Shown here: piece after piece, positions 37,637 through 38,665 of the stretch
How positions within the stretch are numbered: the stretch's first letter is position 1
Layout of the letters: each line of letters begins with the position of its first letter
DNA from: Ideonella sp. MAG2
Lineage (GTDB): Bacteria > Pseudomonadota > Gammaproteobacteria > Burkholderiales > Burkholderiaceae_C
Reading direction: 5' to 3'
Length of the DNA: 64,000 nucleotides
Assembly: GCA_004359425.1 (NCBI GenBank)
Contig: PTEU01000002.1
Location: 622,736 to 686,735 of the forward strand
Made by a program: the position numbers and the translations under genes
The notes under the pieces: generated by a model
Told to the model about the DNA's origin: nothing
Database searches by the model: none
The model's input: only the letters and a program-made list of their open reading frames with translations

Positions 37637-38046
37637 GCCTCAACTGCCTCGGCCCGCGCCTTCAGAACGAAAACAGCCGAGGCTCAGGCCGCGCCGCCCG
37701 ACTCCGCCAGCAAGGGCACGCCCACGGCTGTGCGGACTTTGTTTTCGATCTCACGGGCGATGTCGGGGTTCTCACGCAAGAACTCGCGCGAGTTGTCTTT
37801 GCCCTGGCCAATTTTTTCGCCGTTGTAGGCATACCAAGCACCGGACTTGTCGACGATTTTGTGGGCCACGCCCAGGTCGATGATCTCGCCCTCGCGGCTC
37901 ACACCCTCGCCATACAGGATGTCGAACTCGGCCTCCTTGAAGGGGGGGGCTACCTTGTTCTTGACGACCTTGACGCGGGTTTCGCTGCCCACGATCTCTT
38001 CGCCCTTTTTGATGGAACCAATGCGACGGATGTCCAGGCGCACCGA

Positions 38047-38080
38047 GGCGTAGAACTTCAGGGCATTGCCGCCGGTGGTG
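38047..38080. repeat. 34-bp direct repeat, native copy inside recA
   Basis: These 34 bases encode the RecA segment [11 protein letters not shown] in its normal place. They recur exactly at 38206-38239, 159 bp away in the same orientation. I treat this copy as the source because its flanks on both sides are normal RecA sequence. Confidence 0.9.
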
Positions 38081-38205
38081 GTTTCAGGGCTACCAAACAT
38101 CACCCCGATCTTCATGCGGATCTGGTTGATGAAGATGACCATGCAGTTGGACTTTTTGATGGTGGCCGTCAGCTTGCGCAGCGCCTGGCTCATCAGCCGC
38201 GCCTG

Positions 38206-38239
38206 GGCGTAGAACTTCAGGGCATTGCCGCCGGTGGTG
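38206..38239. repeat. 34-bp direct repeat, misplaced copy at the recA/response-regulator junction
   Basis: This is an exact copy of 38047-38080. On one side it meets recA codons QARLMSQ, which should follow different RecA sequence; on the other it meets the response-regulator frame. It looks like a templated insertion at a deletion breakpoint, or a chimeric join. Confidence 0.9.
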
Positions 38240-38665
38240 ACGATTGATCAGCGCGTCAAGGCACTGGACCTGGGGGCCGATGACTTCATGGCCAAGCCCT
38301 TCTCGTTGCAAGAGCTGGAGGCCCGGGTCCGTGCGCTCACACGCCGTGGCCTGGGGACGGCCTCCAGCGTCATCAAACATGGCCCGCTGACCTTTGATGC
38401 CACCGGGCGTGTGGCCTATATCAACGAGCAGATGATTGAGCTGTCGGCCCGTGAGATCAGCCTGCTGGAGGTGCTCTTGCAGCGGGCCGGCCGCTTGGTC
38501 AGCAAAGATCAGTTGGTGGCCCGTTTGTGTGAATGGGGCGAGGAAGTGAGCAACAACGCCATCGAGGTCTACATCCACCGCTTGCGCAAGAAGATCGAAC
38601 AGGGCCCGATCCGGATCGCCACCGTGCGGGGCTTGGGCTATTGCCTCGAAAAGATCGCTTCGTGA
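38240..38665 (+). pseudogene. OmpR-type response regulator (TctD-like), N-terminus missing
   Basis: The frame begins abruptly in the receiver domain at [18 protein letters not shown], which holds the conserved Lys and the last helix, and continues through an intact OmpR/PhoB winged-helix domain ([48 protein letters not shown]). About 80-90 N-terminal residues are missing, including the phosphoacceptor Asp and the start codon. It directly precedes a TctE-like kinase gene, its natural partner. The loss shares the breakpoint with recA on the opposite strand. Confidence 0.88.

Follow-up and report, generated by a model that had tools for sequence, protein, structure and literature searches.

Introduction

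Two known systems resemble the locus considered here. In deletions with templated insertions that arise by MMBIR or FoSTeS, the deleted segment is replaced by a short insertion whose template lies nearby. The other system is the error made when contigs are scaffolded, or gaps are closed, with mate-pair data. The adapter discussed below is identical to a 38-mer that one publication describes as a ring adapter for libraries of circularised fragments (PMC7357533). The locus lies in a stretch of 64,000 bp, called the window here (G000:C1:622736-686735), which was taken from a genome of 4.39 Mb in 8 contigs. An earlier note on the window had described a recA gene and a response regulator that are truncated at one junction, and had explained them by a single deletion sealed with a templated copy of recA sequence. 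The junction was compared with the same locus in congeners, and with other breaks and repeats of the same genome.

Results

The recA junction

The C-terminal half of recA is found on the minus strand at 37684..38205, as judged by homology to congeners and by RecA profiles. The gene is open from 37684, homology to congeners ends at 38205, and the open reading frame listed for the remnant is 37684-38193. Residues 181-353 of the 353-aa RecA of one congener, G012, are matched with 98% identity, so that no decay is visible in the remnant, and the first 180 residues are absent. The profile matches cover positions 164-262 of 262 for RecA and 1-56 of 57 for the RecA C-terminal domain. On the plus strand, a TctD-like response regulator (38240..38665) lacks approximately 82 N-terminal codons according to congener homology and the TctD model. 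Its homology restarts at about 38240-38246, which is position 83 of the 224-position model. The earlier description of recA without its first half and of a regulator without its first 80-90 codons is therefore accurate.

The 34 bp between the two genes (38206..38239) are an exact direct copy of 38047..38080, at an offset of 159 bp, as had been reported. The identity is exact over the 34 bp and can be extended on neither side. The source copy is the genuine one; it sits inside recA, within a stretch that is collinear with G012. An exact repeat of at least 25 bp within 1.5 kb was present at just 1 of 300 random points in a sample of 224 kb. No microhomology was seen at the left join and at most a base or two at the right join, with the ancestral sequence of the species not at hand. 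A lone N or an adapter was not found at the recA junction or anywhere else in the window, which counts against an assembly error.

The missing segment

In G012, recA and the regulator are intact and divergent, with their 5' ends facing each other, and the head-to-head layout proposed for the intact genes is thus the one found. The homologous edges are 957 bp apart in G012 and 37 bp apart here, so about 920 bp are missing at the recA junction. Eight of the ten congener loci that were aligned gave clean edges, 911-1008 bp apart; L010 and L011 have the opposite orientation and were left out of these distances. Among the loci examined, the nearest named relatives include Pelomonas, Rubrivivax, and Roseateles. 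The alignment identities between G012 and this genome are mostly 77-92%, and the two are not the same species. Some missing stretches could therefore be true differences.

The earlier note had proposed a search of the whole genome for another recA and for the missing halves, and neither was found in the genome's own assembly. When the G012 segment was used as the query, no copy of the missing stretch appeared elsewhere in the assembly, and the best matches covered 93 bp at 73% and 41 bp at 83%. The second of these is the window's own regulator edge. A search of the assembly for the RecA family returned this C-terminal half alone. A complete RecA was found in 14 of the 15 congeners. The remaining one, G009, gave no RecA match, a point against an assembly error, although the G009 assembly is split into 1,220 contigs. 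The completeness of the genome, just 91.14% despite its 8 contigs, was counted in favor of one.

Other breaks in the window and its neighborhood

A total of 224 kb of this genome was compared with 240 kb of G012, and the names of genes at breaks were taken from the intact proteins of G012. Two further breaks are located in the window. At 22764..22961, the homologue of a 601-aa O-antigen-ligase-like protein (Wzy_C/PglL) keeps residues 12-282, with 196 bp here versus 978 bp in G012. At 63919..63929, an oxidoreductase of the Gfo/Idh/MocA type, 484 aa long in G012, lacks residues 102-295 and changes frame, with 9 bp versus 598 bp. Neither break has a copied patch. Outside the window, breaks cut a UbiH-like hydroxylase (window coordinate -79702), a hybrid histidine kinase (66981), and an NAD-binding-domain protein (113816). 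Another, at 123754, truncates two genes at once, one methylamine-dehydrogenase-heavy-chain-like and the other mauD (MauD). The sequence of this genome that remains within these gene-cutting breaks is 0 to 196 bp.

Repeats of at least 13 bp within 1.5 kb were looked for at 13 breaks, and a patch was present at just one of them, that of recA. The patch thus marks only part of the breaks, and this count speaks against an assembly error. Of 137 orthologue-like genes, 119 had a best identity of at least 60% and were kept, and the 18 below that value were excluded. A single match covers more than 85% of the gene in 108 of the 119, and the other 11 are partial. Six of the partial genes lie at the named breaks. 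For the mauD homologue, the compared stretch also ends within the gene.

Two further possibilities were rejected. Low coverage caused by odd base composition does not fit, as the recA segment has 60.9% GC (z -0.88) and the 13 stretches range from z -1.67 to 1.19 with no consistent bias. An Illumina adapter at window coordinate 113816 was suggested by a 9-base likeness seen by eye; there was no match of 12 or more bases to the adapter strings checked.

Two other features of this region were observed. At 11614-12359 of the window, the homologue of a 249-aa G012 open reading frame passes from one matching frame to another near 11910, with no sequence lost. This may be a shadow open reading frame, or the result of a frameshift or of a sequencing error. 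Near-identical long direct repeats, approximately 1.6-1.7 kb apart, occur outside the window at window coordinates 103110-108422 (L100/L101), and are perhaps an Rhs/YD-repeat gene cluster.

Adapters and lone Ns

There are 29 exact copies of a 38-bp mate-pair circularisation adapter in this genome, for example at C1:739603-739640 (L101), and none in the 15 congeners. This palindromic 38-mer is presumably the Nextera mate-pair junction sequence. With at most one mismatch, the 19-base half of the adapter has 79 matches in this genome, while the reversed control pattern has 0. A total of 28 lone Ns were counted in the 1.024 Mb sampled, and 3 in the 224 kb compared with G012. A 38-bp palindrome that lies 126 bp from a lone N in the surrounding 224 kb is this adapter. 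The 30 loci examined yielded 20 distinct adapter places, and a lone N was within 250 bp at 16 of these places versus 136 of 9,800 random positions.

The 34-37 bp patch elsewhere in the genome

The recA patch belongs to a set of 12 in the 1.024 Mb sampled from contigs C1 and C2, all of them exact direct repeats of 34-37 bp with offsets of 130-205 bp. Seven are exactly 34 bp long, with offsets of 130-170, and five are 35-37 bp long, with offsets of 176-205, a relation of length to offset that counts against an assembly error. No such repeats were found in 640 kb of the congeners G012 and G001. The count omits a 5-bp simple repeat in L152 and a CRISPR-like array in L177 (two pairs in the offset range). 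At 3777-4021 of L177 (G000:C2:503777-504021), a repeat of 36-37 bp occurs four times with a spacing of 69-70 bp and looks like a short CRISPR array. Exact direct repeats of other lengths, 22-27, 32, and 42-97 bp, are also present within 1 kb.

Eight of the 12 patches were compared with G012; those outside the comparison are L175, L182:19733, L182:2022, and L190:17841. In all eight, one copy sits in a break of collinearity, and G012 is longer there by 127-1155 bp. The net losses are 920 bp at recA, 218 bp at L096, 206 bp at L169, 127 bp at L188, 326 bp at L168, 492 bp at L163, 1155 bp at L190:4033, and 1107 bp at L159. The L096 patch came from the scan of whole stretches, and its break is outside the 13 that were checked for patches. 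For the L159 break, two more genomes were searched and neither had a match that could be used across it, which counts against an assembly error.

In L188, L163, L190, and L159, like at recA, the edges of the patch and of the break differ by no more than about 7 bp on either side. Extra unmatched bases lie beside it in L168, L169, and L096. In L175 and L182:19733, a lone N directly precedes a 34-bp patch, and that of L175 is beside an adapter remnant. The patch can be on the left piece, with its twin upstream (recA, L168, L169, L163), or on the right piece, with its twin downstream (L188, L096, L190, L159, and the two beside Ns, L175 and L182:19733). Patches on either piece suit contig ends that re-entered their own sequence and were then abutted by the scaffolder.

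Discussion

The junction of recA and the regulator is almost certainly a mis-resolved assembly, a scaffold gap that was wrongly closed. The probability of this is roughly 0.96, a figure that includes library chimerism as the direct cause. It is based on the adapters and lone Ns, on sequence that a congener has and this genome lacks, and on a signature shared by several breaks. The short reads would have included those of a mate-pair (circularised-fragment) library with incompletely removed adapters, and the contigs built from them would have stopped within recA and within the regulator. At its end, the recA contig would have falsely re-entered its own sequence for 34 bases, 159 bp further in, and scaffolding would then have abutted this end to the regulator contig. 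Such a re-entry is the origin that we infer for the 34 bp. These steps would have removed about 920 bp from the public sequence, namely the 5' half of recA and the 5' end of the regulator together with the intergenic region that the two genes share. Since the 34-37 bp patch recurs at other false joins and adapters were left over, a normal recA is very probable in this bacterium. The living strain very probably carries an intact, divergent pair of recA and regulator, like its congeners.

The earlier note had offered a template switch during repair or replication, an amplification chimera, or a mis-resolved assembly as the source of the extra 34 bp. Recurrent patches and adapters favor the last of these and speak against a template switch in the cell. 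A real deletion, repaired by a FoSTeS/MMBIR-like template switch or by end joining with a templated insertion and leaving a recA-null strain, is highly improbable. A template switch could leave a perfect direct copy such as this one, whose source is 159 bp away, the missing segment has no copy elsewhere in the assembly, and recA has the only such copy among the 13 breaks checked. However, seven other breaks share the length class of the patch, two more patches directly follow lone Ns, and adapter was left in the genome. The single sealed deletion of the earlier note is not sustained by these observations. Independent events of template switching in vivo would be expected to give variable insertion lengths, whereas seven of the patches have the same 34 bp and the other five 35-37 bp. 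The joins without clear microhomology, the remnant so close to the G012 protein, and the complete RecA of nearly all congeners also argue against it. The claim that the strain lacks RecA found no support beyond the junction itself. The fuller version, in which a templated-insertion deletion made the strain recA-null, also silenced a TctD-type two-component system, and is linked through the lack of RecA to the other patched deletions, is slightly less credible still.

Widespread decay of the genome, with many genes losing internal segments and recA as one victim, is likewise very doubtful. Several genes are cut in the surrounding 224 kb and 11 of the 119 counted are partial, but the other 108 are well covered by a single match. 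In addition, six of the partial genes are at breaks of the G012 comparison, and scaffold joins are marked by lone Ns and adapters. A chimeric library molecule, formed by circularisation, ligation, or PCR, could possibly be the direct cause of the 34-bp copy, with the assembler simply accepting it into the contig. This variant overlaps with the assembly error; it is unlikely, though far less so than a real deletion or decay. Circularisation adapters are present throughout the genome, and a read across the junction of a very small circle would be expected to jump backward in direct orientation. However, random chimeras are not expected to cluster at 34-37 bp with 34 bp as the lower bound, and the recA junction has no adapter.

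A wrongly closed gap as the explanation of the recA junction removes a false claim, that of a bacterium with a 4.4-Mb genome lacking RecA. With adapters and falsely closed joins at many places, the public assembly is unsafe for statements on gene loss. An exact direct copy of 34-37 bp, at an offset of 130-205 bp and at a join, might also serve as a cheap screen for similarly made assemblies. We know of no source that describes this signature, and the literature searches were not aimed at it.

The recA junction is like the MMBIR/FoSTeS deletions in that sequence is missing and a short copy of neighboring sequence stands in its place. It differs from them in that the copies here cluster at 34-37 bp over several breaks and in that the recA joins are without clear microhomology. 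With the errors of mate-pair scaffolding and gap closing, the genome shares the 38-bp adapter inside contigs, the single Ns, and the loss of sequence at joins. The difference is that at some joins there is a short exact copy of contig-internal sequence.
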